From assembly GCA_902790525.1 (NCBI GenBank), contig CADASI010000038.1, forward strand, positions 1 through 44,162: 44,162 nt of DNA. Reading direction: 5' to 3'. The stretch comes from an uncultured Eubacteriales bacterium. Its GTDB lineage: Bacteria; Bacillota; Clostridia; Christensenellales; Aristaeellaceae. The notes under the pieces are model-generated. The model saw only the letters and a program-made list of their open reading frames with translations, had not been told where the DNA came from and ran no database searches. The position numbers and the translations under genes are program-made. Of this stretch, positions 2,817 to 29,497 are shown piece by piece (the stretch's first letter is position 1; each line of letters begins with the position of its first letter).

Positions 2817-2854
2817 TAAAAAATAGTTGGCAAGTTTTAGCAAACCTACCAACT
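2817..2854 (-). terminator. Terminator beside the left tRNA-Pro fragment
   Basis: On the minus strand AGTTGG (2854-2849) pairs with CCAACT (2830-2825), with partial inner pairing, and is followed by a run of T. It lies directly 3' of the left tRNA-Pro fragment, as expected for a tRNA transcript end. Confidence 0.5.
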
Positions 2855-2857
2855 TTT

Positions 2858-2902
2858 TGGTCGAGGTGACAGGATTTGAACCTGCGACCTTTTGGTCCCG
2901 AA
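2858..2902 (-). repeat. Left attachment-type repeat (tRNA-Pro 3' fragment)
   Basis: These 45 bases are identical to 29498-29542. Read on the minus strand they give the end of an anticodon loop with CGG, the descending anticodon stem, variable loop, T arm (GCAGG-TTCAAAT-CCTGT), the 3' acceptor strand CACCTCG, discriminator A and CCA: the 3' part of a tRNA-Pro(CGG). The 5' half is absent; the adjoining sequence cannot pair to finish the anticodon stem. This is the left boundary of the integrated element. Confidence 0.85.
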
Positions 2903-4033: not shown

Positions 4034-4037
4034 ATAA

Positions 4038-4958
4038 TTACCCCCTTTTATAAATAAGCATTTGTGCACTTGCACAAGTGTTAAAAGGAGAATACTTTCC
4101 ATAATGTGCGAAATCAAAACAGTTTGCATTATGAGGAAACTCTCCGTCAGAATTATCTCCATAAGGATATCCTCGATCATAATATCCAAACGCATTATCA
4201 TTACAGAAGCGTCCTTTTCGAACACTTACATTAGACAATTTGGCAGATAATTGATCAAAGTACTCTCTTCCACCACCGTACGCAGTCCCTAGGTTAACGT
4301 CATTTAGCAGAATATATGCCTTTGCTTGTACGGTATTATTAAAATATTGAGCAAACACATTGATGAATTCTGAAAGCTTTTCGTCGCCCGTATGTTTATA
4401 CATATCTGAAAACACATATTGAAAGACGATAAGGTTTGGAGTCCAAGTACCGTCTGCAATATCATGAATAACATCACACGCATTCTGATAATAGAAATAT
4501 ATATGTCTAGAATCGTTTTCAAAGTGTTTAATATCTCGATGGATATTCTCCCACACATCCCGACTATAATCAATGCCACGATATTCTAGAGAATCATACG
4601 ATATCTTCCCCTTTTCGTGTAGGTAGTCGATAGCAAACAAATCAGTACAAGGTCCACAGCCAAACGATAACACTTTAAAATGGTCAAGTGTCATCAAATA
4701 TTTCATGCGTTTCAAGGCATAGATAATCTCTGATGTATATCTGAAAGAATACTTACAAGTATAGAAATCCGCCATATGTGCACAGTCGTATTTTCTTTCA
4801 GGAGCGCCTTGTGGAGCATGTCTGGGATTATGAATAGCATCTAAACAGTGCTCACACGATCCACGGCAAAAAGGGCCATACGAACAAGATGGACAGTTCC
4901 CACATTGATGTGAGGACCAGCGTTCATCACACCTCGCAAGTATTGTATCGATAATCAT
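4038..4958 (-). CDS. Cys-rich class I SAM-dependent methyltransferase-like protein
   Basis: The 306-residue protein has an N-terminal cysteine cluster (CDERW..CGNCPSC..CRGSCEHC, residues ~10-38) that could hold a metal or Fe-S cluster. A Rossmann-type methyltransferase core follows, with the motif VLSFGCGPCTDL (near 95-106), which fits motif I for SAM binding. AAGGAG stands 8 bases before the ATG, and a TTGAAT/TATAAT promoter lies about 125 bp upstream. It is transcribed leftward together with the DUF1848 gene. The substrate is unknown. Its AT-rich composition contrasts with the GC-rich chromosome and supports acquisition with the element. Confidence 0.65.
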   Translation of the reverse strand: MIIDTILARCDERWSSHQCGNCPSCSYGPFCRGSCEHCLDAIHNPRHAPQGAPERKYDCAHMADFYTCKYSFRYTSEIIYALKRMKYLMTLDHFKVLSFGCGPCTDLFAIDYLHEKGKISYDSLEYRGIDYSRDVWENIHRDIKHFENDSRHIYFYYQNACDVIHDIADGTWTPNLIVFQYVFSDMYKHTGDEKLSEFINVFAQYFNNTVQAKAYILLNDVNLGTAYGGGREYFDQLSAKLSNVSVRKGRFCNDNAFGYYDRGYPYGDNSDGEFPHNANCFDFAHYGKYSPFNTCASAQMLIYKRG

Positions 4959-5936: not shown

Positions 5937-6590
5937 TTATCCGTCGATCTCGAAGCCTATATCACAGTCCCCACATACCACATTCACCAGCTTGGTCGCC
6001 CGGATGATCGCGCCGCACTTCGGGCAGACATATTTGATGCTGCGGTTCTTGCTGGTACTACGCCCGCCCTTGATGGTCGTGGTAGATTCCCCGTCGTCGT
6101 CTCCCTTGGTCTTGATCTGGAGCGTGGCCTGTCGGCTGGCGGCGATGTCGCTCAATTCCGGCTGAAGTGCGACCCACTCGGCGGTTTCCGGAGCTAGTTC
6201 CGTCACCGTCCATCCGTAGGTCTGGTGATGGTTGATCACCAGGCCGTGGGCTTCGGCGGTTTCCTTGAATTTCTTGTTGTGATAGTACCCATTGTTGGAT
6301 ACGTCCTTGATCCCATGATTCAGGTTGTAGAGGTGGGCCATCTCATGGAGCATGGTCGCCGCCACCTCCCCGATAGGCCGGTTGATGTACTCGGCGCAGA
6401 TGTTGATTTCCCGGTATGCCTGGCCATCCGCCTGCCAGATTTCGTATACGGTGCACCAGCCATAGGCTCCGCGTCCGCCGTCCGGAGATACGGTGATGGC
6501 CGGGCGGGCCAGCTCGCCATCGTAGAAGTGGGCGTTGAACATGTCGAACATGGTCTCGGCCTTGGCTACGATCTCGGAAATGTTCAGCAT
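5937..6590 (-). CDS. SprT-like zinc metalloprotease domain protein
   Basis: This 217-residue protein has the SprT-type metalloprotease motif HEMAH (H82, E83, H86) with a likely third ligand His at 104. A C-terminal zinc ribbon (CPKCG...CGDC, about residues 188-212) follows a Ser/Thr/Gly-rich linker. SprT/Spartan-family domains are known for processing proteins bound to DNA, though bacterial mobile-element members are poorly characterised. The start at 6590 has AAGGAGG 8 bases upstream. It is the last gene of the leftward defence-type operon, 100 bp after mcrC. A long inverted repeat abuts its ribosome site and may control translation or transcript ending. Confidence 0.8.
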   Translation of the reverse strand: MLNISEIVAKAETMFDMFNAHFYDGELARPAITVSPDGGRGAYGWCTVYEIWQADGQAYREINICAEYINRPIGEVAATMLHEMAHLYNLNHGIKDVSNNGYYHNKKFKETAEAHGLVINHHQTYGWTVTELAPETAEWVALQPELSDIAASRQATLQIKTKGDDDGESTTTIKGGRSTSKNRSIKYVCPKCGAIIRATKLVNVVCGDCDIGFEIDG

Positions 6591-6603
6591 TGGTGATTCC
6601 TCC

Positions 6604-6659
6604 TTGAAAGTTATGTTTGATTGTGACTGTGAGTGTACGGATTTCAAACATAACTTCAA
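6604..6659 (-). promoter_or_regulatory. Long hairpin next to the SprT ribosome site
   Basis: TTGAAAGTTATGTTTGA (6604-6620) and TCAAACATAACTTCAA (6644-6659) pair over 16 bp with one bulged base and a 23-base loop. In the leftward transcript the 3' arm runs directly into the AAGGAGG of the SprT-like gene, so folding could limit ribosome access. It lacks a T-run, so a simple terminator is unlikely. Confidence 0.6.
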
Positions 6660-6690
6660 GTCAGAATATGAGACAAAGAACAGCTCAAAA

Positions 6691-7737
6691 TTATAGCCCA
6701 CTTGCCAGTCGGTCCAGCTGCTCCGCGATCAAGGCGAAGGGTTTGTTGAGGTCCAGGGTTTTGACCCCGATGCGATTGCCACCGATGTTGTAATCAAAAT
6801 CGGGAATCAGCTCTTCTCCGGTACGGGCATACAGCAGGACGCCGGACACATCCCCTGTGTGGTTCGTATCCATGTTCTTCACATAGGCATATATCTGATA
6901 CAGGTGCGCGGAACGAATGGCTTCGCTGTTATGATGCTCAAGCATGATTCGCCCGTAATACTTGGCGTCAATGATCAGCGTCCCGACATCTCCCCTCAGG
7001 GTGATATCGGTTTGCATGGCAGGGAGGAACATCAGCGCGCGTTCGTCGTTGTCCTCGTCCAAATCCCACTTGACTAGGGCTGGCGATGGCCGGAGGTGCG
7101 GGTGATGGGCGCGGTAGTATTCCAGAATGAACTTTTCATACAACCGCTCCATATGCTCGTCCGAGAATTCCCGCATGCGGTGCTGCCCCTGTTCTGTAGT
7201 CTGGAGCATGCCGTCCAGCACGAAGTAACAGATGTTCATGAGCATCCGGTAAGTCTGGTTGCTACGGTGATAGCCGAGCGTGTTCCAGTGGATGGCAGAA
7301 GGATCAACCATGTCGATGCCGTCGAAAAACAAGATCACCCGCTTGAGGGCTTGCCGGCGCTCTGACGTCACGCCGGGATCGCGGATCAGGATGTCCGCCG
7401 TCGTGCGCAGAATCTGGTTGTAGATATTGTTCTCGGACAGTTCATCATACTCACAGCCCAGCTGCTGGCGCAGCCGGAGGCGGTTGTTCAGCGTCTCCTG
7501 GATATCCAGCTTCCCGCGCAGCACCGAAAGGCTCTCCGCTTTGGGGATGTACTCCCGATAGAGCCCATGCTTCAGCTGCTGGGCAATGCCCTTGGCCAGG
7601 ATGGAAGCAAAGAGGTCCTGGATGTTCTCGAATGGCTCGCCAGCAATCTCCCGGTAATTCTCCTGTTTCAGCACCTGGAAGGCATAGGAGAGCATGTAAT
7701 AGATATTCTGGATCAGGATGCCCTTATCTTCAGTCAT
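6691..7737 (-). CDS. mcrC: McrC family restriction endonuclease subunit
   Basis: McrC is the nuclease partner of the McrB motor in modification-dependent restriction. This 348-residue protein has the family's N-terminal region (ILIQNIYYMLSYAF) and a C-terminal PD-(D/E)XK-type site (QTDITLRG then LIIDAKYYG, residues about 235-255). The ATG at 7737 overlaps the mcrB stop by 8 bp, which suggests translational coupling; a GTG at 7749 is an alternative start. Family members are generally 330-450 residues, so this is full length. Confidence 0.9.
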   Translation of the reverse strand: MTEDKGILIQNIYYMLSYAFQVLKQENYREIAGEPFENIQDLFASILAKGIAQQLKHGLYREYIPKAESLSVLRGKLDIQETLNNRLRLRQQLGCEYDELSENNIYNQILRTTADILIRDPGVTSERRQALKRVILFFDGIDMVDPSAIHWNTLGYHRSNQTYRMLMNICYFVLDGMLQTTEQGQHRMREFSDEHMERLYEKFILEYYRAHHPHLRPSPALVKWDLDEDNDERALMFLPAMQTDITLRGDVGTLIIDAKYYGRIMLEHHNSEAIRSAHLYQIYAYVKNMDTNHTGDVSGVLLYARTGEELIPDFDYNIGGNRIGVKTLDLNKPFALIAEQLDRLASGL

Positions 7738-10006
7738 CGAAAACACCACTCAGCCTGTTTTCCCACTGCCGCAGCTTCTCGGGATCATCGAACCAGTATT
7801 CCCGGAGCGTGGGAAGAATGTCATAGTATACCACAGCCTTCATCCATTCGTCGGTGCATTCCTGCTGGTTGCAGAAATAGCTGTGGCCGATGCGGAAGCC
7901 CGCCCCCAGCGCCGGGTCCTTCAGGATGGCGCGGTTCAGTTCGCGGACGCATTCGATCAGCCGGTCAAAGGTCTCGTTGTCCAGCCCCTTCTGGTAAGCC
8001 TGGAAGCCCTCCGTGTCGAAACCCGGCTCCATATCATAGAAGCTGAACCGACGGCGCAGCGCATAGTCGATCAGCGCCAGGCTGCGGTCCGCAGTGTTCA
8101 TCATGCCGATGATGTAGATGTTCTCCGGCACGGTGAAGGGCTTGCGGGTATAGGCCAGCGTGGCGGGTGTGCCGCGATAGTCCTTCTCAATCAGCATCAG
8201 CAGCTCGCCGAAGATCTTGCTCAGATTGCCCCGGTTGATCTCGTCGATGATGAAGAAGTAATCCCGGTTCCTATCCTGTCCGGCGCGCTGGCAGAATTCG
8301 TAGAATATGCCCTCGGTCAGCTTGAATCCTTCCCCGTCGGGCTTGTAGCCCATGATGAAATCCTCATAGGCGTAATTCTGATGGAACTGGACAAACTGGA
8401 TACGGGATTCGTCCTGCGCGCCCATTATGGACCAGGCCAGCCGCTTGGCGGCGAAGGTCTTGCCCACGCCCGGCGCGCCCTGGAGAATGACGTTCTTCCG
8501 GTGTTTGAGCAGGGCGACCAGGGTGTCGTACCGCTCGCCGGACATGTAAACCTGATTCAGGAAGGCCGCTTTGTCGTAGGGATCGACTGCCGGGGCTTCG
8601 ATCTCCGGCTCGGGGGTTTCCAGTTCGATATCGCTTTCTTTCTCGGCATACAGTGGCACGTTCGACAGGTCAAACTGATCCAGCGCGTCGCTCAATTCCT
8701 TTCGGAGCTTCCAGACGTATGATCCCTGTTCTTTTTCCTTGTCAGCAGGTTTTCCAAGGTATATGACTGGCCACCATCGAGAGTTTTCCGAATCCCTCGG
8801 CATCACCGGGCATCCCGTTTTCTCGACGATTCGACGGGCCAAGTAGGTAGAACCGCTTAGATAATAGTTTTTGCTTTCGCCGTATTTGATGGCAAGCTGT
8901 GTGCAGGTCGCAGCACCGCCGTAATCCTTAAAGCGCTTGACAATTGCCAGCGAGGAATCAAAGAATACTTCTTTGTCTCCCAGCAGCGCAAGCCATTGCT
9001 CCATGGTCAAGCCTGGTGTGTATTCCTCTTGCGTGGGCCACCATTCTTCTTCCTGATCCGGCTGATAATTCCTCAATCCCCACACGCCGCTGCCTATCCC
9101 TTCCACGGAATAGAACAGATCATCGTTTCCTTCAACATAAGACTGAGCGTCCGTACTATGGCTCTGGATCTCTCGGGAAACAGCATTGGTCCATGCCGGA
9201 TTGGTGAGGATGCTCTGGAGTTTTCCCCGTTCCTTCATGACACGGCAGATATCATTGAGATGCCCCCTGCCGCCGAGACTCTTGAGGGCTTCGGTGATTT
9301 CGGACAGATACGTCACCTTGCTTTTCTGAGAATAATATCGACTGATATAAAACACCACATCCATGGTCAATGTGCGCAACTCACTGTCCGGCCAGCAGGA
9401 TTCCGTCAGATGTGATTTCAGCAACTCAATCAGTTCGGTATCCTTGAGCAACTCCTCTCGGATTTCATTAAAGAAAGTGATCCAATTGCGAATGTTGGCC
9501 ACATAGGCACCTTTCTTGAACACATAATTCGCCACCAGTACCTTTGCAGCTTCCTTCACCTCACTATACTTGTAATCAGAATAAGTGTCAGGATAGCGTA
9601 GCCATAAGTACACAGAAATAGCATTCTCTTTTTGAAAGTGGCTGATGGCTCCATCACCGTACTTTTCCAACATCACGTCAGCCTGGGTCTTGAATGCCTG
9701 TATGCGTTCAACGACATCCCGGCTCTCGTCATAGAGGGCAATAAACGCTCCTCTCACTTCTTCCGGAGCCTTTTCTGCAAAGATTTGAATCATACCTCTT
9801 GGGAAATAACTGCCGGAAGTCAGTAAATTGCCAGTCTTATCCAAAGATCGCTTCAGCATATCCGGAAAGTTAACCGCATTAACATTCCAGTTGTCCTGGA
9901 AGCACTTTACTGCCTCCCACTTGTAGTGTTCTTCCTTCCACTGGAATTCCGTGAAATCACGCTTGTAATCCGCGATCACATCCTTGAGTATTTCCCTGTC
10001 AAACAT
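7730..10006 (-). CDS. mcrB: McrB-type AAA+ GTPase with N-terminal HARE-HTH-like region
   Basis: This 758-residue motor subunit has Walker A GAPGVGKT (510-517), Walker B FFIIDEINR (584-592) and the McrB signature MNTADRSLALIDYALRRRF (636-654). The N-terminal ~450 residues would supply target recognition. They include a winged-helix, HARE-HTH-like segment (about 233-312, ending in GSGVWGLR), often associated with modified-DNA recognition; this is inference. GAGGAGG stands 8 bases before the ATG. It lies 50 bp after the PLD-helicase gene and overlaps mcrC, forming a canonical McrBC pair inside a larger leftward operon. N6-methylation by the upstream methylase would have to be compatible with its specificity. 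Confidence 0.9.
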   Translation of the reverse strand: MFDREILKDVIADYKRDFTEFQWKEEHYKWEAVKCFQDNWNVNAVNFPDMLKRSLDKTGNLLTSGSYFPRGMIQIFAEKAPEEVRGAFIALYDESRDVVERIQAFKTQADVMLEKYGDGAISHFQKENAISVYLWLRYPDTYSDYKYSEVKEAAKVLVANYVFKKGAYVANIRNWITFFNEIREELLKDTELIELLKSHLTESCWPDSELRTLTMDVVFYISRYYSQKSKVTYLSEITEALKSLGGRGHLNDICRVMKERGKLQSILTNPAWTNAVSREIQSHSTDAQSYVEGNDDLFYSVEGIGSGVWGLRNYQPDQEEEWWPTQEEYTPGLTMEQWLALLGDKEVFFDSSLAIVKRFKDYGGAATCTQLAIKYGESKNYYLSGSTYLARRIVEKTGCPVMPRDSENSRWWPVIYLGKPADKEKEQGSYVWKLRKELSDALDQFDLSNVPLYAEKESDIELETPEPEIEAPAVDPYDKAAFLNQVYMSGERYDTLVALLKHRKNVILQGAPGVGKTFAAKRLAWSIMGAQDESRIQFVQFHQNYAYEDFIMGYKPDGEGFKLTEGIFYEFCQRAGQDRNRDYFFIIDEINRGNLSKIFGELLMLIEKDYRGTPATLAYTRKPFTVPENIYIIGMMNTADRSLALIDYALRRRFSFYDMEPGFDTEGFQAYQKGLDNETFDRLIECVRELNRAILKDPALGAGFRIGHSYFCNQQECTDEWMKAVVYYDILPTLREYWFDDPEKLRQWENRLSGVFDD

Positions 10007-10056
10007 GGCACAGCCTCCTCTGCCTGTATACTCCTATCATCAAAGCGTATTTCTAT

Positions 10057-10923
10057 TTACCCCATCACCTGCTGCGTCTTCCTCAGGAACTTCGCCGGGA
10101 TCTCCTGATGCAGCTGCCACACGATGTTCATGGGGCGGCTGCCGGTGTGGCGGACATAATCCGCCGTGCCGAGGAAGGTATAAGGCGCGGCGCCACAGGC
10201 GTCGCTCTTGGTCTCCCGGACGAAAAGCAGCACATGGCTGCCACGGGATTTGTGGTTGATGTAGCGCTGGCCGGTAGGCGAATCGGCGCTGGTGGTGGAC
10301 TGGCTCTGCCAGTGGAACAGCCGGGAATTGATGGAATAGTCGTTGTACATCGTCGTGGGCGAATACTCCTTATCCGACTTGTTCAGCGTAATGAGCAGCA
10401 CGTCGGTCTGTTTGTCGGCCAGCCATTTCACGCCCTCGCGCAGCGTCTTGGGCTTCATGAAATCCAGCGCCAGCAGCAGCTGGTCGCGGGTATAGGCACA
10501 GTGCACGTCCAGCGGACAATCGTAAGGCAGGTCCGCCGGGGCGTCAATGAAGTCGATGGTATCCAGCTTGTATTTCAGAAGCTCGATCAGCTCGCCCAGC
10601 ATGACCGGGCTGTCCGCCAGTGCATACAGTCTCTCCAAAACTGCGTCCGCACTGAAATCCTCAATGACCTCCTGCCACACGGTCACATAGAACATATTGA
10701 GCATCCGCTTCTCGTTCTCGCCCAAGGCGGTAAAATCCACGTCGTCCAGCCTCGGCAGAATGTCCAGCAGGAAGCCGATCCAGCGCCGGGAGTCGATGGC
10801 GCACAACCGACTGAACGCTTTGGTCAGCACGTCCTCCACCGGCTCGGCGAAATCATCCCGTACGCCGGCCTCGGCGCACAGCCGGGCGAAGTTGAATATG
10901 GCATAGATGGTGCGTACGTCCAT
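10057..10923 (-). CDS. C-terminal DUF3427 part of the frameshifted PLD-helicase
   Basis: This frame continues the helicase protein. Reading back through 11030 it gives SYGFRAGLVSRIASFEED and then LPLTLENFLTYHHMDVRTIY, which belongs directly after the helicase C-terminus. The conserved end (FLGTADYVRHTGSRPMNIVW) is typical of DUF3427, a C-terminal domain found on PLD-nuclease helicases. The MDVRTIY methionine at 10923 has no good ribosome site, so this is probably not an independent gene. A one-base loss (or two-base gain) near 11025-11032 separates the frames. It could be a real inactivation, a sequence error or, less likely, programmed frameshifting. Confidence 0.7.
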   Translation of the reverse strand: MDVRTIYAIFNFARLCAEAGVRDDFAEPVEDVLTKAFSRLCAIDSRRWIGFLLDILPRLDDVDFTALGENEKRMLNMFYVTVWQEVIEDFSADAVLERLYALADSPVMLGELIELLKYKLDTIDFIDAPADLPYDCPLDVHCAYTRDQLLLALDFMKPKTLREGVKWLADKQTDVLLITLNKSDKEYSPTTMYNDYSINSRLFHWQSQSTTSADSPTGQRYINHKSRGSHVLLFVRETKSDACGAAPYTFLGTADYVRHTGSRPMNIVWQLHQEIPAKFLRKTQQVMG

Positions 10924-10952
10924 ATGGTGATACGTCAGGAAGTTCTCCAGCG

Positions 10953-13142
10953 TCAGCGGCAGGCCGCTGTCCTCCTCGAAGGACGCGATGCGGCTGACCA
11001 GCCCCGCCCGGAAGCCGTAGCTCTCTCCAGTTGGATGTAACAGCCCTTCGGCACGGACACGAACCCGTGGCGCAGCTCCTGCTCCACGCTGTGGTTGGTG
11101 TTATCCAGCAGCGCGGCAAACTTCTCCTCGAAGTTGTACTTGCGGTTGGCCGCGCCGATGAAGTCCAGCACCGTGAGGCATTCCTTCCCCTCGGCCAGGC
11201 GCAGGCCGCGCCCCAGTTGCTGGAGGAAGATCGTCAGCGATTCCGTGGGCCGCAGAAACAGCACCGTATTCACCTCGGGGATGTCCACACCTTCGTTGTA
11301 AATGTCCACCACGAACAGCACACGAAGTTCGCCCCTGACCAGCCTCTCCTGGGCAGAGGCGCGCACATCGTCCCGGCTGTCGCCGGTCAGCGCCAGCGCG
11401 GGCACGCCGCAGTGGTTGAAGTAGTCCGCCATGAACCGCGCGTGCTCGATGGAGACACAGAATCCCAGGGCCCGCACGTCGTTCATGTCGGTCACATATT
11501 TATCCATGCTGCGCAGGATGTGGTCGGCGCGCTTCTCCGCCACGCCCTGGCTGAGCGTGTACAGATTGCTCAGCTCCGACCGGTCATAGCCGCCTCGCAC
11601 CCAGCGCAGGTCGTCCAGGTCCACGGTGTCCGACACGCCGAAGTACTGGAACGGGCACAGCAGCTTGCGGTTGATGGCCTCCGGCAGGCGAATCTCCGCC
11701 GCGACGCGCCGGTCGAAATACCTGTAGATGTCCTGGCCGTCCATGCGCTCCGGCGTGGCGGTCAGGCCCAGCAGCACCTTGGGCTGGAAGTGAGTGAGCG
11801 CCTTTTCATAGGATTGCGCCGCCGCATGGTGGGATTCGTCGATGACGATATAATCGTAATAATCAGCGGGGAGCCGCTGGTCCAGCACCTGGGAGTTCAG
11901 CGTCTGCACCGACACGAACAGGTGCTCCAGGCTCTCCGGACGATAATTACCCACGTAGAGCTCACCGAAGTTGACGTCCTTCAGCACCCCGGCGAAGGTC
12001 GCCTGGCTCTGCTTCAGTATCTCCTCCCGGTGGGCGATGAACAGCAGACGGTTGGCCCTGCCGGGATTTTGTTTGCAGAAGCGGCGATAGTCGAAGGCGG
12101 CGATCACGGTCTTGCCCGTGCCGGTGGCGGCGACGATCAGGTTGCGAGTGGAGCCGCGCACCTCGCGCTCGGCCAGTAGCTTGTCCAGGATCTCCTGCTG
12201 ATAGGGATAGGGCCGGATGTCGAACAAAAACTGGGGATGCTCCCGGTCGTAGTGCTCGGCCTTGAGTGCCTCCACCAGCCGGGGCCGCATGTCCGGGCCG
12301 TACAACTCGAATTCGTCCGAGTGCCAGTAGGTGTCGAAGGTTGCCGCGATCTTGCGGATCGTCGCGGGCAGGTCCTTCGCCGTGACCTTCACGTTCCACT
12401 CCAGGCCGCTGGAAATGGCGACGTTGGACAGATTCGACGAGCCCACATAGGCCGTGGTGAAGCCGGTCTCCCGATAGAACACATAGGTCTTGGCGTGCAG
12501 GCGCGTGCGCTTGGTATCGTAGCTGACCTTGATGCGGGCGTTCGGCAGCGCGGCCAGCGCCTCCACGGCCTTGACGTCCGTCGCACCCATGTAGGACGTG
12601 GTGATGATGCGCAACTCCCCGCCCCGCCGAGCGAACGCCTCCAGGTCCTCGAGGATCAGCCGCAGGCCGCTCCACTTGATGAAGGACACCAGCATATCGA
12701 TGCGGTCGGCGCTGGCGATCTCCTTCTTGAGCTCGGAAAACATCTGCGGCTCGTGCACCGCGCCGGTGAACAGGCTGCTCTGGGCGATGGAGGTCTCCGG
12801 GCGCACGGCGTCGCGCGCCGTCTTCCCCAGCGCCAGCGCCGGGTCCTGCTCCGCCAGCAGCGCCATCAGCTGCTCCGCACGGTCGTCGATGCCCTGGCCG
12901 TCCGTCTCCGGGAGCAGCCCGATCAGCCGGTTTGCCAGCGCCACCTGATCCGCCACGTCGCCCCGCCCCTCGGCCATGCCGGACAGCGCCCGCTTCGCCG
13001 CCTCCGCGATGTACCGCGAAAGCACCTCCGCCGCCTCGGCAGGGTCGACAGGCGCGACAGACTTGCGCTCCGCTGGAATAGCCTCCAATTCCTGGCGCAG
13101 CGCGCGGTTGATCAGTTGTTCGTAGAGACCAGGGTGGAGCAT
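10953..13142 (-). CDS. PLD-nuclease / SF2 helicase, N-terminal part (frameshifted)
   Basis: In this 729-residue frame an N-terminal helical region is followed by a phospholipase-D-type nuclease domain (RLHAKTYVF with H216 and K218; GSSNLS 235-240). A superfamily 2 helicase follows, with Walker A AATGTGKT (338-345), DESH (435-438) and a C-terminal QQLGRGLR motif VI. Such proteins act as restriction-type DNA translocase-nucleases. The last ~20 residues (after GCYIQLER) are out of frame and lack similarity; the true C-terminal DUF3427 domain lies in the next frame down to 10057, giving a family-typical ~1,025 residues. The ATG at 13142 has GAGGA 8 bases upstream. It sits 31 bp after the DGQHR-NDT gene. 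Confidence 0.85.
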   Translation of the reverse strand: MLHPGLYEQLINRALRQELEAIPAERKSVAPVDPAEAAEVLSRYIAEAAKRALSGMAEGRGDVADQVALANRLIGLLPETDGQGIDDRAEQLMALLAEQDPALALGKTARDAVRPETSIAQSSLFTGAVHEPQMFSELKKEIASADRIDMLVSFIKWSGLRLILEDLEAFARRGGELRIITTSYMGATDVKAVEALAALPNARIKVSYDTKRTRLHAKTYVFYRETGFTTAYVGSSNLSNVAISSGLEWNVKVTAKDLPATIRKIAATFDTYWHSDEFELYGPDMRPRLVEALKAEHYDREHPQFLFDIRPYPYQQEILDKLLAEREVRGSTRNLIVAATGTGKTVIAAFDYRRFCKQNPGRANRLLFIAHREEILKQSQATFAGVLKDVNFGELYVGNYRPESLEHLFVSVQTLNSQVLDQRLPADYYDYIVIDESHHAAAQSYEKALTHFQPKVLLGLTATPERMDGQDIYRYFDRRVAAEIRLPEAINRKLLCPFQYFGVSDTVDLDDLRWVRGGYDRSELSNLYTLSQGVAEKRADHILRSMDKYVTDMNDVRALGFCVSIEHARFMADYFNHCGVPALALTGDSRDDVRASAQERLVRGELRVLFVVDIYNEGVDIPEVNTVLFLRPTESLTIFLQQLGRGLRLAEGKECLTVLDFIGAANRKYNFEEKFAALLDNTNHSVEQELRHGFVSVPKGCYIQLERATASGRGWSAASRPSRRTAACR

Positions 13143-13173
13143 AACACATCCTCATTCCATTAGCTGTGTTGAT

Positions 13174-14604
13174 CTACCTAACACCATAGAAATCCTTTAT
13201 TTTTTGAAGAAGCCTCGGCCTTAGGTCCGTCTGGTTTTTATAACGGAGTTGATCATACATGGTGATGTTGGAGCCAATCTCTTGCTTTGGATCAACACCG
13301 TCACGGGTATGATATAGTAATAGCACAGGCTTGTTTAAAGCTTGAGCATATCCGATTTCATGATGAACATTCTTATTACCATAAGAAAGATCCGCTATTA
13401 CTAAAGCAGACTCTCGGATTCCTTTCACAATTCTTTTATAGATGTCATCCGAGTATCCGTCGCTATGTTCATCGACTTTAATGATCTCAAAGTCAATCTT
13501 ATTCTCATCCTTGAGTATTTTCTGCACATCCTTTACTGTTTGATATGTATCTTGAGTATCAATACAGAACTGCATAGACATAAACACTTTCTTAGGCATA
13601 TTGTCATACACCTTGTCAAAAATGCTTATTAAATCTGCCATATGAATACCTTTTGCCTCAGTGATACAATTATCTTTGATCCAATACAGGAATCGCACAT
13701 ACTTCTTTTCATCCACCAGTTTGTAATACGATAAAGCTCCTATGACAGACAGATTTTCGGTGCCGCTGCACACGCTTGCTTCTTTCAACGCCAATTCTAT
13801 CTTAGGTAATTGATTGACAAAAGCATCAACGGAAGCTTCATCCTCGTTCAAAACTTTTGCTTTCAAAAGAAGAGTGAATTCCTCCAATAAATACGTATAC
13901 TCTTCTCCTCGAATAAGGAATTGAATGAATGGATAATCGCCAAAACGCACTTTATTTGCTACTTGTCGCGCAAGGTAATACTCCCAGCCGAAGGAAGGAT
14001 CAGTCTTTAACTTACTATCTGTAAATACATCCTTGCTTTCTAAAATCACCTTCAGATTCTGTTCAAGCTTTAGTGGGATTTGTTTCGCGTTTATATTGTG
14101 AAAAATCGCTCTTGAGTACTGTGATTCTTCTTCCTGGTTTCTGCACAGGACAAGGCAAAATGGTACCTTAAAATCCGTTATCACATCATCGGACGCAGAT
14201 AAGCGATGGTTTCCATCTATTCTATTGAGCTTAACCTTACTCTCATCAAATGTAATGTGTGCTATTTGATTCTTGTCACCAGCACTGTGACGGAATATAG
14301 AAAAATTAAACACACCAAGACTTTTGTTCCATTCTCTATTTGAGCGGAAGGCTTCATAGAAATCTTGGACCTCTTCAAAATTACCATCGGATAATAACGA
14401 CACAGACAATACAACCTCAGGGAAAAATCTATATTCTCCCTGATTAAGGAAACGCGCCATCTCCCCGGCGTGTTCTGCAATCAGATCACGCTGGACGTCA
14501 GGATTTCTTTCAGATACTCCACTCAGTTGTTTATATGAAGCGTATCCCCTTATGCACAGGAAATTTCCCATCGAGAATTCCATTAATCCACTAAGCCTTG
14601 CCAT
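13174..14604 (-). CDS. DGQHR-domain protein fused to a nucleoside deoxyribosyltransferase-like domain
   Basis: This 476-residue protein joins two defence-related parts. The N-terminal ~330 residues contain NRIDGNHRLSA (near 128-138), the D-G-x-H-R motif of DndB/DGQHR-type, ParB-like proteins. The C-terminal ~140 residues start at VFMSMQF and end with ALVIADLSYGNKNVHHEIGY; the glutamate of HEIGYA (E416) matches the catalytic Glu of the nucleoside 2-deoxyribosyltransferase superfamily, related forms of which act as NAD- or nucleotide-processing effectors in anti-phage systems. GAGGAG precedes the ATG by 9 bases. It lies 14 bp after the HEPN gene, in the same operon. The fusion suggests a sensor-effector protein; this is inference. 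Confidence 0.7.
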   Translation of the reverse strand: MARLSGLMEFSMGNFLCIRGYASYKQLSGVSERNPDVQRDLIAEHAGEMARFLNQGEYRFFPEVVLSVSLLSDGNFEEVQDFYEAFRSNREWNKSLGVFNFSIFRHSAGDKNQIAHITFDESKVKLNRIDGNHRLSASDDVITDFKVPFCLVLCRNQEEESQYSRAIFHNINAKQIPLKLEQNLKVILESKDVFTDSKLKTDPSFGWEYYLARQVANKVRFGDYPFIQFLIRGEEYTYLLEEFTLLLKAKVLNEDEASVDAFVNQLPKIELALKEASVCSGTENLSVIGALSYYKLVDEKKYVRFLYWIKDNCITEAKGIHMADLISIFDKVYDNMPKKVFMSMQFCIDTQDTYQTVKDVQKILKDENKIDFEIIKVDEHSDGYSDDIYKRIVKGIRESALVIADLSYGNKNVHHEIGYAQALNKPVLLLYHTRDGVDPKQEIGSNITMYDQLRYKNQTDLRPRLLQKIKDFYGVR

Positions 14605-14618
14605 TTGTAACGACTCCT

Positions 14619-15353
14619 CTATTCAGTAATATTCGAGTACTTCACGCCCTCATCAATCTTGTACATCAGCATACTGGCGTACATCAACCGGCGCATAGCC
14701 TCTTCTCTGGATATGACAACATCATTGGAATGAGCCTTCGGATTGCGCAGGGCAGACATAGCCCCGGCAAGCATTTGCATATAGCCCAGTTGGGTGTTCA
14801 TCCCTGTATCATCGGTCAGATCGCAAAACTTTATCATCGGATTGTTTTTCGAGAACACTTTATTCATTGCATCTGCACCATCTGGAACGGGATCATTGGG
14901 CCGGAGCTTATGAAACAGCTTTTTCACCCGGGCATTGATTTCAATGAAAGCATCTGCTGCTGCGTTGGCATAGGAGCCATCAACAAACAGTTTCTTTGAT
15001 GATTTTTGGATCAAAGGATGAATATATGCCCATTTTTCATCCTCGGGTTCTGGATTGTTTCTCCTCGCCTGTCGTTTCCCTTCAAGGTAATCCAGCCCGA
15101 AAATGATCTCACCCAGTGCATAGGGGTTCAGCATGGCCTGCCCATACTGATTTGTATAGAACAACCTATCCTTAGATCGTATCAACTGACTGGCAATTTG
15201 CGGCTCATATTTCTCGGCGTCTTTTGCTATAGCAATAATATCTTCCCGGATACTCGACGCTCGATTGGCATCGAATGGGAGCATGGTGATATTTGGTATA
15301 CTTGCTGTCTGTCTAAGCCGACTTATGAATGTGGTCAGGAATAATGAATTCAT
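14619..15353 (-). CDS. HEPN-type Abi_Ymh (TIGR02391) family protein
   Basis: The 244-residue protein matches the TIGR02391/Abi_Ymh family: FVDGSYANAAADAFIEIN in the middle, then GYMQMLAGAMSALRNPKAH. RNPKAH (R203 to H208) is a perfect R-x4-H HEPN ribonuclease motif. Proteins of this family are often found inside type I restriction loci and are thought to act in abortive infection, probably by cutting RNA. The ATG lies only 3 bp after the hsdS stop, with GGGAGA in front, so it is co-translated with the restriction genes. An RNase effector role is inferred from the motif. Confidence 0.8.
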   Translation of the reverse strand: MNSLFLTTFISRLRQTASIPNITMLPFDANRASSIREDIIAIAKDAEKYEPQIASQLIRSKDRLFYTNQYGQAMLNPYALGEIIFGLDYLEGKRQARRNNPEPEDEKWAYIHPLIQKSSKKLFVDGSYANAAADAFIEINARVKKLFHKLRPNDPVPDGADAMNKVFSKNNPMIKFCDLTDDTGMNTQLGYMQMLAGAMSALRNPKAHSNDVVISREEAMRRLMYASMLMYKIDEGVKYSNITE

Positions 15354-15356
15354 TAT

Positions 15357-16784
15357 CTATTCTCCCAACAATTCTTTCTCAAACTGTGCCTTGGCTTCGG
15401 CCCATTCTTTGGCTGCTTCTTTTCGCAGCTCGTTTGCCTGGCTTCTGCGTCGCATGATTTCCGCGGCAATCTCATCCTGTATGCTCTTATCGGGAAGAGG
15501 GATTCGTACTTTTTTCAGGGTTTCAATGTTGATGCCTGCTTGGTTATTGAAATTGGTACACAACAGTTTCCAGTACCCGATGCTGAGCAGCACATTGAAG
15601 AAGGCAGCAACATAATACGGATTAACCCCATCTTTGACGGTTATCCGCGTCATGTGGTTGGATGTTGCGCAAAGCACATCCTGGTCAAAAACCGTTGTTT
15701 TGCCAACCAAATCAGGCGAATTGGTGTTATTGAATATCACCTCGCCCTTTTGGCAGTAATCTTCCGACTTTAATCTATCCTTTGGCACGTACTTCTTCGT
15801 CTCAAACGACAGTTCCCCCTCTGGTGTAATGCTAAAGGGGCGCAATTGAGCAACCCGTTGATCATCCGGCAGATCATCCGCTTGATCTTGCTTACCTGCC
15901 GCGAATCCTGTAACAATTCTATTGCAAATAGCACCTATTTCCGTCGATGGATAAAAGGACCTTTCGATTTGTTTCCTGAAGCTTTCGAATTTCGGGGTGT
16001 AATAATCTACATCTAATCTCGCTGTTATATCACACAATCGTATTGAGTGACAAAGCACTTGGCCCTCTCTATCAAAACAAAGCCCAAGTCTGTCAAGTAC
16101 CATATTTGTATGACCTAATAACAACCCATTAGCATGATTTAGTTTTTTGTTTATATAAACTCTTTTCTGTCCTATGTCCCGGGCTAATTCTTCTTGTAGC
16201 AGAGTATCTGGAAGTATTATATCTATATCCGATATATCCGCTACAGTTATTGTCTCTTGCACCCCCCCTGATATTTGCTTTTTTATCAATGCCTTACCAA
16301 GTGCAGAATTCAAATACTCCCAAACATAGTTTGGAGCTATTTCCACATCATTCCAATATTTTTTTAAACGTATCTTTATTACATTCCCACTAATATTGCA
16401 TCCTGCTAATTGTTCTGTAACAAGTCCTGTTTTCCCAACTTCACCACGGACGGTCATGACTAAATCGTTCTTTTGAAGTACTGTCCTCAGGAACCTATTG
16501 TTCGTCTCCTTATCAATAAAGCCAAGGTCATTTATCTTTACCCACTCTCCAGAACGTGCAATATTCTCCCCTTTTATGACACCAATACCGTTTGAAACAT
16601 ATTTTATATTATAAAATGTCGGGTATCGGTATATATCTTCAATTAATTCTCCGAATTTGACTATTGTGTAGGTGGAATTAAGCTTAATCAATTTACCATG
16701 AAGACAATAATCAACATCAAACCGTTTCTTTGTATTCCCCCGTTTTACGGCGAAGACACAAAGGTCATTCGCACCGGGGGTCAT
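15357..16784 (-). CDS. hsdS: Type I restriction-modification specificity subunit
   Basis: This 475-residue protein carries two target-recognition halves. Each ends in the typical conserved region: IDIILPDTLLQEELARDIGQ near residue 200 and VRIPLPDKSIQDEIAAEIMR near 430, followed by a coiled-coil helix. HsdS sets the DNA sequence methylated by the partner methylase. Its ATG overlaps the methylase stop by 4 bp (ATGA). The composition is clearly more AT-rich over the first target domain (about 16050-16750) than in flanking genes, as often seen for exchanged specificity domains. Confidence 0.9.
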   Translation of the reverse strand: MTPGANDLCVFAVKRGNTKKRFDVDYCLHGKLIKLNSTYTIVKFGELIEDIYRYPTFYNIKYVSNGIGVIKGENIARSGEWVKINDLGFIDKETNNRFLRTVLQKNDLVMTVRGEVGKTGLVTEQLAGCNISGNVIKIRLKKYWNDVEIAPNYVWEYLNSALGKALIKKQISGGVQETITVADISDIDIILPDTLLQEELARDIGQKRVYINKKLNHANGLLLGHTNMVLDRLGLCFDREGQVLCHSIRLCDITARLDVDYYTPKFESFRKQIERSFYPSTEIGAICNRIVTGFAAGKQDQADDLPDDQRVAQLRPFSITPEGELSFETKKYVPKDRLKSEDYCQKGEVIFNNTNSPDLVGKTTVFDQDVLCATSNHMTRITVKDGVNPYYVAAFFNVLLSIGYWKLLCTNFNNQAGINIETLKKVRIPLPDKSIQDEIAAEIMRRRSQANELRKEAAKEWAEAKAQFEKELLGE

Positions 16785-18595
16785 ACGAAAAAAGGGTGCG
16801 CGTCCTCCTGGAATTCCTCGTATTTTTGAACAATCTCATCAAACTGTGATGCCGTTTCCCTGCCGGTAGCGTCATAGCCGATCAGCTCCGGCGCGGCCAT
16901 AAAGATGGTCTCGTCCATATCCGGCTTTTCTTTCGGCGCCCGCTTTCGCACAAATATGATGGACGCCTTCACGCCCGCGCCAAAATGGGCGAAGGCATGC
17001 TGCGGCAGGCTCACCACGGCCAGAAGCTGGAACTTCTCAAGGATGAAATCCCGAACATACTGGGAAGAGCTGTTGGTCAAAACACCGTCCGGCAGCACTA
17101 TCGCCGCCTTGCCGGTGCCAGGCTTCAGGAATTCCCATATCCGCTCGATAAACAGAATCTCCGAGCTTTGGTTCTTCCGGGGCTTCTTTTTGCCCTTTGC
17201 ATCATAAGTATTGCCCAATTCATAATTGGCCAGATAGGGCTTTTCGGCTTTGTTGATCGTGGAGCCAAAAGGAGGGTTGGTCAATATCAGATCAAACTTA
17301 TCCTTGCTGAATCCCCGGTTATGATCGTGCATGGTGTCAATGCTGCCCAGCGCATCGAAACTGATGACGTTGGTGTGTCCATCGTCATGCACAATCATAT
17401 TCATCTTGGCAACGCGCGCAATCTCATCGTTGATTTCAATGCCATAGAGATGCTTCGCGGCGAAGTCGTGCCAGTAATTGTAGTATTCAACTTGCTGCGC
17501 TTCTTTGTCGAAGTATTCCCCTGCCTGACGGCGCATGTAATCGAGAGTGTGCAAGAGGAATCCACCGGACCCACAAGCCGGATCCAGCACATCCCAATCG
17601 TTTTCCGGCTTCATCATCTTTACCGCGAATTCAATGATCTTGCGCGGCGTGAAATACTGGCCGAAATCACCCTTGAAGAAACCGTCCATGAACTGCTCGA
17701 AGGCAACGCCCTTCACATCCAGGTCGGTCTTGTTCAGGTTGATGGCCTCTAAATGGGAAACCACTGTGCGAAGCACCCGGTCGTCCACCTTGATGGAATC
17801 CGTAAAGACCTCCGGATCCTTCGTCTTTTGCTCGTCGTAAAGCTCGTTGATGCGTTCAGCCAGCTTGGAAGAGGGCTCATGCGTTTTAATCTGGAATTGG
17901 TACGGCTGGCCATTTTTCCGCGGCTTTTGTTCATCGCTGATCTTGACGAAAATCAATTTGCACAACTCGCCAAAGGCAGTCGGCGGAGAAAGCCGGCCAC
18001 CACCCCAAAGTGTTTGATGGCATTTTTTTATCGCCGCAATGAGCTCTTCACGAGATACGGGCTTGATATCGTTATCTGTGCCCTTATAGAATCTGAATTC
18101 CTGGGGCTTGCCATATGCCTTAGGCAAATCCGCAATGATGTTTTGCTCACGTTCATATGCGCCATATTTGTCGGAAACATCCAGCACGCGCCGGGTGCCG
18201 CCGGCGACAATCACCACATACTCCGCACGCAGCTTCACCCATGTCGCATTACCTACACCTTGCTCGATGGCCTGGGCAAATTCCGCATCCGTAACGCCGT
18301 CCTTTTTACACTCTACGACGGTATAGGGGCGCTTGCATTCATCATCACTGAAAATGACGATGTCAGCCCTGTCTATCGGCAAACGATCCGGAACAACTAC
18401 CTCTATTTTGATTCGTGCCGCCGGGTATTCATACTTGTATATGAGTTCCGCCCAGAATTCTGCGCGCACTTGTTCCTCAGGGGCGTTATAATTCTCCGTA
18501 TGGTTATCAGAAGTCACATATGTGATCTTCTGCCGGTTCTCCGGGCCAGTAATAACGGCGTATCCATCTTTTTTTGCTCTTTCCAAATAACTCAT
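16781..18595 (-). CDS. hsdM: N6-adenine DNA methylase with N-terminal PD-(D/E)XK nuclease domain
   Basis: The 604-residue protein carries a C-terminal type I N6-adenine methylase core with SAM motif LDPACGSGGF and catalytic LTNPPFG. Its N-terminal ~150 residues resemble the HsdR_N nuclease domain: D78 in RADIVIF, and E95/K97 in TVVECKK form a D...ExK site. No separate HsdR follows, so cutting and methylation may reside in one polypeptide that works with the adjacent HsdS. I prefer the ATG at 18595 because GGGGG lies 8 bases upstream; an ATG at 18610 would include that site. It opens the eight-gene leftward operon, behind a TTGAAA/TATCAT promoter. Confidence 0.85.
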   Translation of the reverse strand: MSYLERAKKDGYAVITGPENRQKITYVTSDNHTENYNAPEEQVRAEFWAELIYKYEYPAARIKIEVVVPDRLPIDRADIVIFSDDECKRPYTVVECKKDGVTDAEFAQAIEQGVGNATWVKLRAEYVVIVAGGTRRVLDVSDKYGAYEREQNIIADLPKAYGKPQEFRFYKGTDNDIKPVSREELIAAIKKCHQTLWGGGRLSPPTAFGELCKLIFVKISDEQKPRKNGQPYQFQIKTHEPSSKLAERINELYDEQKTKDPEVFTDSIKVDDRVLRTVVSHLEAINLNKTDLDVKGVAFEQFMDGFFKGDFGQYFTPRKIIEFAVKMMKPENDWDVLDPACGSGGFLLHTLDYMRRQAGEYFDKEAQQVEYYNYWHDFAAKHLYGIEINDEIARVAKMNMIVHDDGHTNVISFDALGSIDTMHDHNRGFSKDKFDLILTNPPFGSTINKAEKPYLANYELGNTYDAKGKKKPRKNQSSEILFIERIWEFLKPGTGKAAIVLPDGVLTNSSSQYVRDFILEKFQLLAVVSLPQHAFAHFGAGVKASIIFVRKRAPKEKPDMDETIFMAAPELIGYDATGRETASQFDEIVQKYEEFQEDAHPFFV

Positions 18596-18656
18596 TAGCA
18601 CAACCCCCATAGCAGGTCATAGATCTGATTATTTAAAATTGTAAACCACTATAAAT

Positions 18657-18698: not shown

Positions 18699-19988
18699 CT
18701 ATAGTTTCCCTACCGCATACAGCGGCCAGTTCTCCATCCACTCTTCCTTCCTGTGATCCGACATGGATGTGCGAACGGGACGAAGGCCAGGGTATTTCTC
18801 GTTGAAGCTGCGCAGGCTGCGGGCGCGGAGGTTCTCCTCAGCCTTGACCTCCAGGGGAACGATGGTGCCGGCCAGCTGGAACAGGAAGTCGATCTCGCCG
18901 GTGCCGTGCTCGGAGGACCAGTAATAGGGGGTGACGCCGACCTCGGCAATCAGCTGCTGGAGGACATACTGCTCCGTCAGCGCGCCTTTGAACTCGACGA
19001 ATATGTCGTTGCCGCCCAGGAGGGTACGCACGTCGATGTCGCCCATAGCGGCCAGCAGGCCCACGTCCAGGAGATACAACTTGAACGCCGTCAGATCATG
19101 ATAGGCTTTCAGCGGCATGCCGGGCTTGGAGACGCGATGGACCCGGTGGATCAGGCCGCAATCAGCCAACCATTGCAGCGCCACCTCAAAGTCCTTCGCC
19201 CTGGCTCCCTCTCGGAGCATGCCATAGATGAACTTCCGATTCTCCTTCGCCAACTGGGCAGGGATGGATTGCCACACCATACGCAGCCGGGGGACGATGT
19301 TGTTGGGGGCATGTTTGGAGAAGTCCTGCTCGTAGGCGGCCAGCAGCGCGTTCTGTATGGTGCGCACCTCGGCGAAGTCGCCCCGCTCAACGTAGGCGGC
19401 CACAGCTTCCGGCATCCCGCCGACGTAATAGTACTGGCGCAGCAGGTCGATATATTTGGATTTGAAGGTGGTGATCAGCGGCCAGTCCAGATGATCCAGC
19501 AGGTCCACCAGCGGCGCGTTTTCCGTCGCCAGCAGGAACTCCCGGTAGCTCAGCGGGTAAAGCTGCAACTCGTCCACCTTGCCCACGGGGAAGTTGGTCC
19601 CCTGGTGCATGGCGATGCCCAGCAGCGATCCCGCCGCGATGACTGCATACTCCGGCGCATTCTCATAGAAGTACTTCAACGCCGTCAGCGCCTGCGGGAC
19701 TTCCTGCACCTCGTCGAATATGATCAGCGTGTCCTGAGGCGTGATCTTCTCCCCAGATTCGATCTGCAACGCGGTGATGATGCGCTTGAGGTCGTAGTCA
19801 TCCTCGAACAGGATCTTCATCCGGCGGTTGTTGTCAAAATTGATATAGGCGGTGTTGGCAAAGGACGTGCGCCCGAACTCCTTCATGAGCCAGGTCTTGC
19901 CGACCTGCCGCGCCCCGCGAATGATCAGCGGCTTGCGGTTGGGCTTGTCCTTCCATGCCTGCAGCTTGGTCAATGCGCTTCGGTACAT
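18699..19988 (-). CDS. AAA_14/DUF4143 family ATP-binding protein
   Basis: This 429-residue protein has Walker A GARQVGKT (about residues 26-33), Walker B LIIFDEVQE and a C-terminal DUF4143 domain ending in a PD-(D/E)XK-like stretch (GEIDFLFQ...PLEVKAEEN). Such AAA_14-DUF4143 proteins are common in Bacillota and often show strain-specific presence; their function is unknown. The ATG at 19988 is chosen because GGAGG lies 8 bases upstream; a GTG at 19997 would overlap it. It is upstream of, and in the same direction as, the defence operon, but the operon has its own promoter. It may be a separate cargo gene. Confidence 0.85.
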   Translation of the reverse strand: MYRSALTKLQAWKDKPNRKPLIIRGARQVGKTWLMKEFGRTSFANTAYINFDNNRRMKILFEDDYDLKRIITALQIESGEKITPQDTLIIFDEVQEVPQALTALKYFYENAPEYAVIAAGSLLGIAMHQGTNFPVGKVDELQLYPLSYREFLLATENAPLVDLLDHLDWPLITTFKSKYIDLLRQYYYVGGMPEAVAAYVERGDFAEVRTIQNALLAAYEQDFSKHAPNNIVPRLRMVWQSIPAQLAKENRKFIYGMLREGARAKDFEVALQWLADCGLIHRVHRVSKPGMPLKAYHDLTAFKLYLLDVGLLAAMGDIDVRTLLGGNDIFVEFKGALTEQYVLQQLIAEVGVTPYYWSSEHGTGEIDFLFQLAGTIVPLEVKAEENLRARSLRSFNEKYPGLRPVRTSMSDHRKEEWMENWPLYAVGKL

Positions 19989-20177
19989 GGCATTCACCTC
20001 CGATATCCTTATTATACCGGATCATTCCCGTTTTTACAACACAAATATGATCCGATATCGCATTTTTTCGAAGATAATTCCCCCTGTTGCAATATTACAC
20101 TGTGTTCGATAGCTTTTCCGGCGACTGTGTGATATAATCGTTTGCATCGAACATATGTTTTGTATGGAGGTGATTTC

Positions 20178-25377: not shown

Positions 25378-25548
25378 CGCATGTCTCATATACCCTCGAG
25401 CAGAGCAACATGCTCTGCCTGGGGGGTAGGGGCGGAGCAAATCTCCAATGCGATTATCACTGCTATCGGATGCGCCCCATCGTGAAAGAGGTCGCGAAAG
25501 TTTTGTCCCAATTTGTCGAAAGAAATCTTCAAACAAGGAGGAAGGATT
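25378..25548 (+). other. Non-coding gap before terS, with hairpin
   Basis: This gap contains the hairpin GCAGAGCA-ACA-TGCTCTGC (25400-25418), followed by a G-rich stretch. Packaging (cos/pac) sites often lie beside terS in phages and satellites, so this is a place to look, but no sequence here identifies one. Confidence 0.3.
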
Positions 25549-26389: not shown

Positions 26390-26449
26390 GGCTTGCTTTC
26401 ACGGTCGTTTTCCGTAGACTGTCAAGCTGAGAACAAAGGGGGTGTATCC

Positions 26450-29495: not shown

Positions 29496-29497
29496 TG

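Follow-up and report, generated by a model that had tools for sequence, protein, structure and literature searches.

The window analysed here is a stretch of 44,162 nucleotides that comprises the whole of contig C38 in the genome of an uncultured Eubacteriales bacterium (3.75 Mb in 199 contigs). It carries an integrated satellite-like element, and on this element lies a leftward cluster of defence-type genes (5937-18610) with a restriction–modification (RM) gene pair, i.e. a nuclease-methylase and an HsdS-type specificity subunit, and with a DGQHR-NDT protein, in which a DGQHR domain is joined to a nucleoside deoxyribosyltransferase (NDT)-like domain. A preliminary description of this DNA had read the cluster as eight genes that form one multi-layer defence system. 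The methylase, HsdS and DGQHR-NDT genes are the real conserved core of the cluster, and the other genes are interchangeable add-ons. The features are summarized in Table 1.

Restriction–modification core and its DGQHR-NDT partner

The nuclease-methylase and HsdS genes are assigned to a type IIB-like RM(S) enzyme of predicted activity, not to a bare methylase, because an HSDR_N_2 domain is present and its catalytic residues align with those of BsaXI. A profile of 66 methylases matches RM.BsaXI at positions 11-689, nearly the whole protein core (E = 2e-71; next solved methylase, 6e-28), and HSDR_N_2 was found in 64 of the 66 methylase rows. In the window protein, E70, E100 and K102 align with the catalytic E73, E105 and K107 of BsaXI, and D83 lies two columns from D90. 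These four BsaXI residues are reported as absolutely conserved across the described type IIB family in the accessible part of PMC11997821, which describes no DGQHR-NDT partner there. Like BsaXI, the window pair consists of a nuclease and N6-methylase fusion and a separate S subunit with two recognition domains, the arrangement of type IIB enzymes; its fusion protein is shorter (609 amino acids (aa) vs 916 aa). A HsdR motor-nuclease beside HsdM/HsdS, as in a type I RM system, was not found in the window.

An assignment to MADS was considered and rejected: the best NCBIfam models are the MAD2 methyltransferase for the methylase and the MAD5 HsdS for the specificity subunit, yet both scores lie below the curated cut-offs (328.8 vs 720 and 94.8 vs 400, respectively). 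MADS has a kinase among its genes; neither a kinase nor the MAD8 ATPase was found in the window operon, where the match of the MAD8 model is confined to the McrB ATPase (20.5 bits).

Relatives of the DGQHR-NDT protein were sought in one genome per species (84,980 species) with an alignment of three such proteins (from the window, genome G687 and a Leisingera plasmid) as a query blind to neighbouring genes, and with RIDGNHRL as a scan pattern. The locus counts rest on the best 80 of 135 relatives, with loci fetched up to 10 kb on each side of the match; core genes were counted on the same strand within 8 kb. Nuclease-methylase, HsdS and DGQHR-NDT occur together in 70 of the 80 loci, and a type I RM set (HsdS and HsdR, in five loci also HsdM) accompanies the DGQHR-NDT gene in seven more. 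The remaining three lie at contig edges (L055 and L103 without an RM call, L119 with HsdS only). HsdR was Pfam-checked in L068 and identified by phmmer in the other six type I loci; the HsdS of L068, L075, L076, L087 and L091 and the methylase of L092 were hand-scored from long open frames and then confirmed with family hidden Markov models (HMMs).

The full set of eight genes is not conserved as a system: window proteins were scored as present by phmmer at 1e-5, and HEPN Ymh was found in two of the 80 loci (L043, L055, placed before DGQHR-NDT), McrB with McrC in two (L090, L097), an intact PLD-helicase-DUF3427 gene directly behind DGQHR-NDT in one (L117), and SprT in none of the loci as fetched. 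The gene-order check that the preliminary description had itself suggested therefore bears out the methylase-HsdS-DGQHR/NDT unit, with a type I variant in seven loci, and shows the rest to be variable; the proposal of one conserved eight-gene system was rejected on these gene orders.

The core genes follow the order methylase, DGQHR-NDT, HsdS in 15 loci, and the HsdS/DGQHR-NDT junction is an overlap of exactly 4 nt in 36 of the 60 junctions measured. In G687, methylase, HsdS and DGQHR-NDT are three abutting genes (HMM-confirmed). By their titles, records with the RM core come from Clostridia, Pseudomonadota, Bacteroidota, spirochaetes, Phycisphaerae, Desulfobacterales, Nitrospinota, Lentisphaerae, Kiritimatiellae, Arcobacter and Thermotoga, and span about ten phyla (phylum assignment by the present authors, with the labels of metagenome-assembled genomes (MAGs) as deposited). 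Pairwise distances of methylases and DGQHR-NDT proteins are correlated (r = 0.62, 66 rows; none of 2000 permutations as high), a value that includes any shared host ancestry; the correlation with the methylase is 0.67 for the DGQHR part and 0.40 for the NDT part, and neither was reached in 2000 permutations.

A conserved fourth gene was also considered and rejected, as the clustering of 149 tight neighbours gave small groups only and no fixed fourth partner; the largest group (n = 10) combines Mrr-type proteins with the McrB-like proteins of L090 and L097. As a separate observation, the DGQHR-NDT gene is the next gene after the type I RM genes in L057, L060, L061, L065, L068, L070 and L080; the partner is thus not limited to type IIB-like enzymes.

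The full-length DGQHR-NDT protein is rare. Among the matches listed in genome samples of the same class (291), order (297) and phylum (398), only the NDT part was matched, except in G687. On plasmids, a long match was found only in Leisingera, where the first part of a methylase (50% identity across 329 aa) and most of a DGQHR-NDT protein (30% identical to the window's over 397 columns, 79% to that of L079) are encoded in one open reading frame (ORF; L010:10891-13134, annotation N-6 DNA methylase), as would be expected after an in-frame deletion within a methylase/DGQHR-NDT operon. Viral contigs yielded one near-full-length and one partial relative, and nothing with one- and two-sequence queries; the phage collection gave no DGQHR-NDT match, and no E. 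coli DNA match was obtained at the sensitivity used. In one viral contig (L139), a HsdS-like ORF of 649 aa directly precedes a DGQHR-NDT ORF of 517 aa. In L119 the DGQHR-NDT protein is spread over two ORFs, and in L121 it stops short of the NDT part (375 aa).

Table 1. Genes and other features of the window, with positions, strands and family assignments
Feature	Position	Strand	Assignment
Nuclease-methylase (core gene 1)	16781-18610	-	HSDR_N_2 (PD-(D/E)xK) + N6_Mtase, BsaXI-like RM-type fusion
HsdS-type specificity subunit (core gene 2)	15357-16784	-	Two Methylase_S stretches
HEPN protein (optional insert)	14619-15353	-	Hypoth_Ymh, RNPKAH (Rx4H) motif
DGQHR-NDT protein (core gene 3)	13174-14604	-	DGQHR + Nuc_deoxyrib_tr (nucleoside deoxyribosyltransferase-like)
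PLD-helicase piece, N-terminal	10953-13142	-	PLDc_2/ResIII; PADLOC mREase_IV; frame lost near the end of the piece
DUF3427 piece, C-terminal of same mREase_IV enzyme	10057-10923	-	DUF3427, different frame
McrB-like subunit	7730-10006	-	AAA_5/McrB, Walker A GAPGVGKT; N-terminal part without Pfam match above cut-off
McrC subunit	6691-7749	-	McrC family match
SprT-like metalloprotease	5937-6701	-	HEMAH motif
AAA_14 + DUF4143 protein	18699-19997	-	PADLOC candidate PDC-S01; 88 bp upstream of core
Left att-like repeat	2854-2902		49 nt, reads as tRNA 3' part
Right att-like repeat	29494-29542		49 nt direct repeat, 98% identical to left copy
D5-type primase-helicase	22344-24815	+	Element gene
Small terminase	25513-26076	+	phrog_83 / Terminase_4
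Tyrosine integrase	26393-27664	+	Element gene

The DGQHR-NDT protein and its proposed role

Two alignments of the DGQHR-NDT protein were used, i.e. alignment A3 with 77 rows (window and 76 loci) and a residue alignment with 79 rows (window, 77 loci and L042); sequences below 440 aa (L116, L119, L121) were excluded, and A3 also lacks L103. The hallmarks of the DGQHR domain, a QR pair, a DG-x-HR pentapeptide and FxxxN (accessible part of PMC4619093), are represented by Q38 R39, by D130-R134 in the form DGNHR, and by F168xxxN172; residues Q38, R39, F168, N172, N412 and E416 are identical in all 79 rows. Family matches among the 77 rows comprise TIGR03187 (65 rows, E<=0.001), Dnd-associated DGQHR (11), Pfam DndB (9), GmrSD_N (3) and DpdB (2), and the protein stands on a diverged branch of the DGQHR domain, not as a clean TIGR03187 member. 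For the NDT part, solved nucleoside deoxyribosyltransferases give matches down to E = 5e-5, and those to nucleotide N-glycosidases are not significant; Nuc_deoxyrib_tr was found in 37 and a CAP12-type TIR domain in 10 of the 77 rows, and PADLOC 2023 gave a weak TIR effector match only. On the basis of NDT enzymology and the alignment to solved NDTs, we take E416 to be the NDT nucleophile. The protein probably cleaves nucleosides or nucleotides; in the literature and models searched, no function is described for it.

We hold with moderate confidence that the window contains a satellite-like element with a stacked defence cluster, the core of which is a type IIB-like RM enzyme with DGQHR-NDT as an accessory effector or guardian that cleaves N-glycosidic bonds. 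The nuclease-methylase and HsdS, judged by their families and catalytic residues, would methylate self sites and cut unmethylated DNA. The DGQHR-NDT protein would act as an accessory abortive effector, or as a guardian of the RM enzyme; its DGQHR domain (ParB/sulfiredoxin-like, cf. DndB, DpdB, GmrS) may sense a nucleotide, the state of the DNA or the state of the RM complex, and its trigger may be RM inhibition or a nucleotide or DNA signal received via this domain. When the first line fails, the NDT domain, in which the catalytic glutamate is kept, would break the N-glycosidic bonds in nucleotides, either NAD+ or deoxynucleotides, a putative backup role analogous to the cleavage of tRNA by PrrC behind EcoprrI. 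HEPN Ymh would be a second, optional RM-linked toxin, and PLD-helicase-DUF3427 and McrBC would be modification-dependent enzymes in an exchangeable downstream slot, where they may cover phages that escape RM through modified DNA. As in RM guardians, an effector-like gene was found fixed in the RM operon.

Several points weigh against the effector/guardian reading. Activity, substrate and trigger of the DGQHR-NDT protein are all putative. Its DGQHR match in the window scores 29.9 bits vs a curated cut-off of 58.85 (TIGR03187) and its NDT match (PF05014) 28.1 vs 28.8; residue 405 is D in 72 and N in seven of the 79 rows, and part of the invariance of D130-R134 follows from the search itself, which used RIDGNHRL as a pattern. 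Most BsaXI-like RM genes are without a DGQHR-NDT partner: none was found beside the five other BsaXI-like RM loci from 244 other genomes of the class (E <= 1e-100), which have other or no third genes, and 2765 plasmid records match the methylase vs two that match DGQHR-NDT, one of these by the NDT part alone. On a Klebsiella plasmid, the BsaXI-like pair is accompanied by a hypothetical protein and two DUF262 genes, and on a Bacteroides plasmid a kinase lies behind the pair. Furthermore, in L117, an uncultured Clostridiales MAG, the methylase is 98% identical to the window's and the PLD-helicase-DUF3427 gene is 91% identical in DNA over 3.1 kb; between these genes lie a HsdS with 26% identity, a different small ORF and a DGQHR-NDT protein only 28% identical to the window's, and any DGQHR-NDT/methylase contact must therefore tolerate divergence. 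In 11 rows (window and 10 loci) whose methylases share 76% or more identity with that of the window, DGQHR-NDT identity follows neither the methylase (Spearman -0.18) nor HsdS (-0.22, p = 0.11). Coupling of DGQHR-NDT to HsdS specificity was rejected, as it was not seen among these close methylases; the partner is kept, yet is not tied to one target sequence.

The uncoupling from HsdS identity would also be expected of a plain defence island, in which RM, HEPN, DGQHR-NDT and type IV enzymes would each work on their own, with co-transfer as their only link, and the differences between loci in inserted and downstream genes point the same way. For the non-core genes we adopt this island reading ourselves. 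For the cluster as a whole we judge it rather improbable, since the core link is near-universal (77 of the 80 loci have an RM set with DGQHR-NDT, the other three lie at contig edges, and about ten phyla are represented), core junctions are often 4-nt overlaps, and an island gives no single fixed partner. The opposite view, that all eight proteins work in one integrated pathway, draws on the tight co-directional spacing in the window, on type IV enzymes being commoner downstream than upstream of the core (12/47 vs 1/38 loci; 6/25 vs 1/22 with relatives collapsed, p = 0.10), and on the methylase and PLD-helicase genes shared with L117; it is very unlikely, given that the full set occurs in 0 of 80 loci, that the downstream slot also takes Mrr, GmrSD, AbiGi/AbiGii, RhuM, T5orf172 and AlbA, and that a frameshift interrupts one of the eight genes in the window.

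Two further readings concern the DGQHR-NDT protein itself. It could be a regulator or a cofactor-controlling subunit of the RM enzyme, comparable to DndB in Dnd, with an NDT domain that only binds a nucleotide. DGQHR is a DndB superfamily domain, with the Pfam DndB, Dnd-associated and DpdB matches given above, and a role as negative regulator is proposed for DndB in the accessible part of PMC12839542. A mere binding domain would hardly need E416 and N412 to be identical in 79 of 79 diverse rows, and is therefore less likely; we consider the regulator doubtful, if the least improbable of the alternatives. There is also a slim chance that the protein acts on DNA, with its DndB/ParB-like domain docking the NDT-type domain on unmodified or foreign DNA, where bases would be removed or exchanged under the steering of the HsdS-methylase complex; if true, this would be restriction through base loss or exchange instead of strand cleavage.

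RM systems rank with the most common defences of bacteria, but for few of them, to our knowledge, is there a fixed partner that steps in after a failure of restriction. PrrC and PARIS are presented as RM guardians in the accessible part of PMC12707154, and both PrrC-EcoprrI and PARIS resemble the window core in that a candidate toxin gene is fixed in an RM operon as a proposed RM backup; PrrC is an anticodon nuclease, whereas the window partner is DGQHR-NDT. Composite operons of this sort are known: R-M operons that include HEPN Ymh (PMC3710099) and McrBC with type I RM, likely as a single operon in a branch of E. coli K-12 (PMC11090510), are in print. Neither operon includes DGQHR-NDT in the accessible text of these two papers, and the word DGQHR is absent from PMC11090510. 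DndB, DpdB and GmrS (DGQHR and DUF262 domains) share the QR pair, the DG-x-HR pentapeptide and FxxxN (PMC4619093, accessible part) with the window protein, which differs by DGNHR, a C-terminal NDT domain and an RM enzyme as partner. According to the accessible parts of the reports, Retron-Eco1 combines an NDT-type effector with NAD+ hydrolysis (PMC12405507), and DUF4062 (Swarozyc) is a NADase of TIR/NDT-like type for which a Glu is essential (preprint PMC13174449); like the window protein, these have an NDT/TIR-like domain with a conserved Glu, there used in abortive defence, whereas sensor part and gene context differ.

In the DGQHR literature, covered by title and start of abstract, none concerned an RM partner, and among the matches listed for deoxyribosyltransferase with defence or RM, covered by title, no RM-linked DGQHR-NDT was found; a description elsewhere is possible, because subscription papers, REBASE and most preprints were outside the search. 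Among systems of RM with a linked effector, the conserved RM-linked DGQHR-NDT partner looks new. With its link to RM in about ten phyla and its invariant catalytic-type residues, the protein is a testable candidate for a general RM-linked abortive effector.

Exchangeable genes beside the core

The leftward genes and domains named in the preliminary description were found at 5937-18610, except that PLD-helicase-DUF3427 is not one open frame: the gene is split by a frameshift into two ORFs, which correspond to positions 12-612 and 670-935 of the PADLOC model PDLC03659 in different frames. In L117, the gene is a single ORF of 1042 aa, 96.6% and 94.8% identical to the two pieces in the window; the frameshift may be a mutation or an assembly error. 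The spacings within the cluster are -4, 3, 14, 31, 50, about -8 to -20, and -11 to 100 bp, the last two varying with the start codons chosen for McrC and SprT, and agree with the gaps of -8 to 100 bp given previously. Two promoter-like sites (18685-18657, 18655-18628) and one terminator-like site (5920-5908), all of them consensus matches, are compatible with an operon as weak evidence; over the region, 28 promoter-like sites were counted vs 15.0 (standard deviation (sd) 4.2) in shuffles, and 18 terminator-like sites vs 15.1 (sd 3.9). The single promoter assumed earlier is no more than compatible with these sites. A further leftward gene ends 88 bp upstream. This AAA_14/DUF4143 gene (PDC-S01) was also seen upstream of the core in two relatives, L059 (4646-6199) and L052.

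Other inserts between HsdS and DGQHR-NDT comprise DUF4238 with an ORF without assignment in L050, and such ORFs in L052, L073, L077, L093, L094 and L117. Downstream of the core, GmrSD (L079, L081, L085, L117), Mrr (L066, L096, L082, L086, L071, L104), AbiGi/AbiGii (L043), RhuM (L088), T5orf172 (L050, L059) and AlbA (L099) were found; the GmrSD of L081 and L085 and the McrBC of L090 and L097 were identified by phmmer, and the McrB of L090 also matched AAA_5. SprT is probably an unrelated passenger. The Pfam run covered part of the 149 neighbours, mostly downstream, and the type IV counts rest on phmmer and the Mrr profile on both sides; an upstream helicase of L117, which has neither PLD nor DUF3427, was excluded from them. 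Type IV enzymes (Mrr, GmrSD, McrBC, PLD-helicase) occur in the tight downstream run more often than upstream: they were found in 12 of the 47 loci that have a tight co-directional gene downstream and in one (L069) of the 38 that have a tight gene upstream (Fisher p = 0.005). When relatives were collapsed (DGQHR-NDT at least 60% identical, 40 groups), the point was weakened and the core was unaffected; the downstream enrichment is only a suggestion, because p rises to 0.10. Mixed defence operons may be read in this manner, as a fixed core with exchangeable cargo.

One related group of loci switches the gene right after DGQHR-NDT, i.e. GmrSD (L079, L081, L085), Mrr (L082, L086) or McrBC (L090, L097). 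At L129:6355-7122 and L032:11272-12063, BsaXI-like RM pairs without DGQHR-NDT have similar-looking small third proteins (KAWxAFNAW, by eye).

The satellite-like element

The att-like repeats enclose the tyrosine integrase, the D5-type primase-helicase and the small terminase, a set as found in phage satellites of the phage-inducible chromosomal island type, and also a HTH protein; when the ten larger element ORFs were compared with PHROGs, none of them matched a capsid, tail or large-terminase family. The earlier designation 'satellite-like' holds as far as tested and is a fair label, with the defence genes as cargo of the element. The element primase has 66 relatives in viral contigs (46-57% identity), and DGQHR-NDT was found in the fetched flanks of 0 of these 66. 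An empty integration site was sought in related genomes, which gave partial flank matches only.

The right att-like repeat reads as the 3' half of another tRNA, and neither repeat copy gives a full tRNA call. A tRNA-Thr(CGT) at 29545-29617, in which the acceptor 3' end is poorly paired, continues directly into this repeat; the junction (29494-29617) may be a scar left by an earlier insertion, or else an assembly join. Several copies of imperfect repeats (59-120 nt) with a TTTGGTC...GACCAAA-like core are clustered at 1746-2702, immediately beyond the left att-like site, and are adjoined by 30- and 44-nt tandem repeats. More cargo is found at the left end of the element (3077-4958; a DUF1848 gene and an overlapping ORF of 306 aa without Pfam match), and a Fic protein is encoded at 28165-29190, inside the element beside the right att-like site. 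An array of 18-, 36- and 72-nt repeats at 39942-40722, which coincides with a strong AT skew at 40-41 kb, is probably the low-complexity tail of a chromosomal protein.

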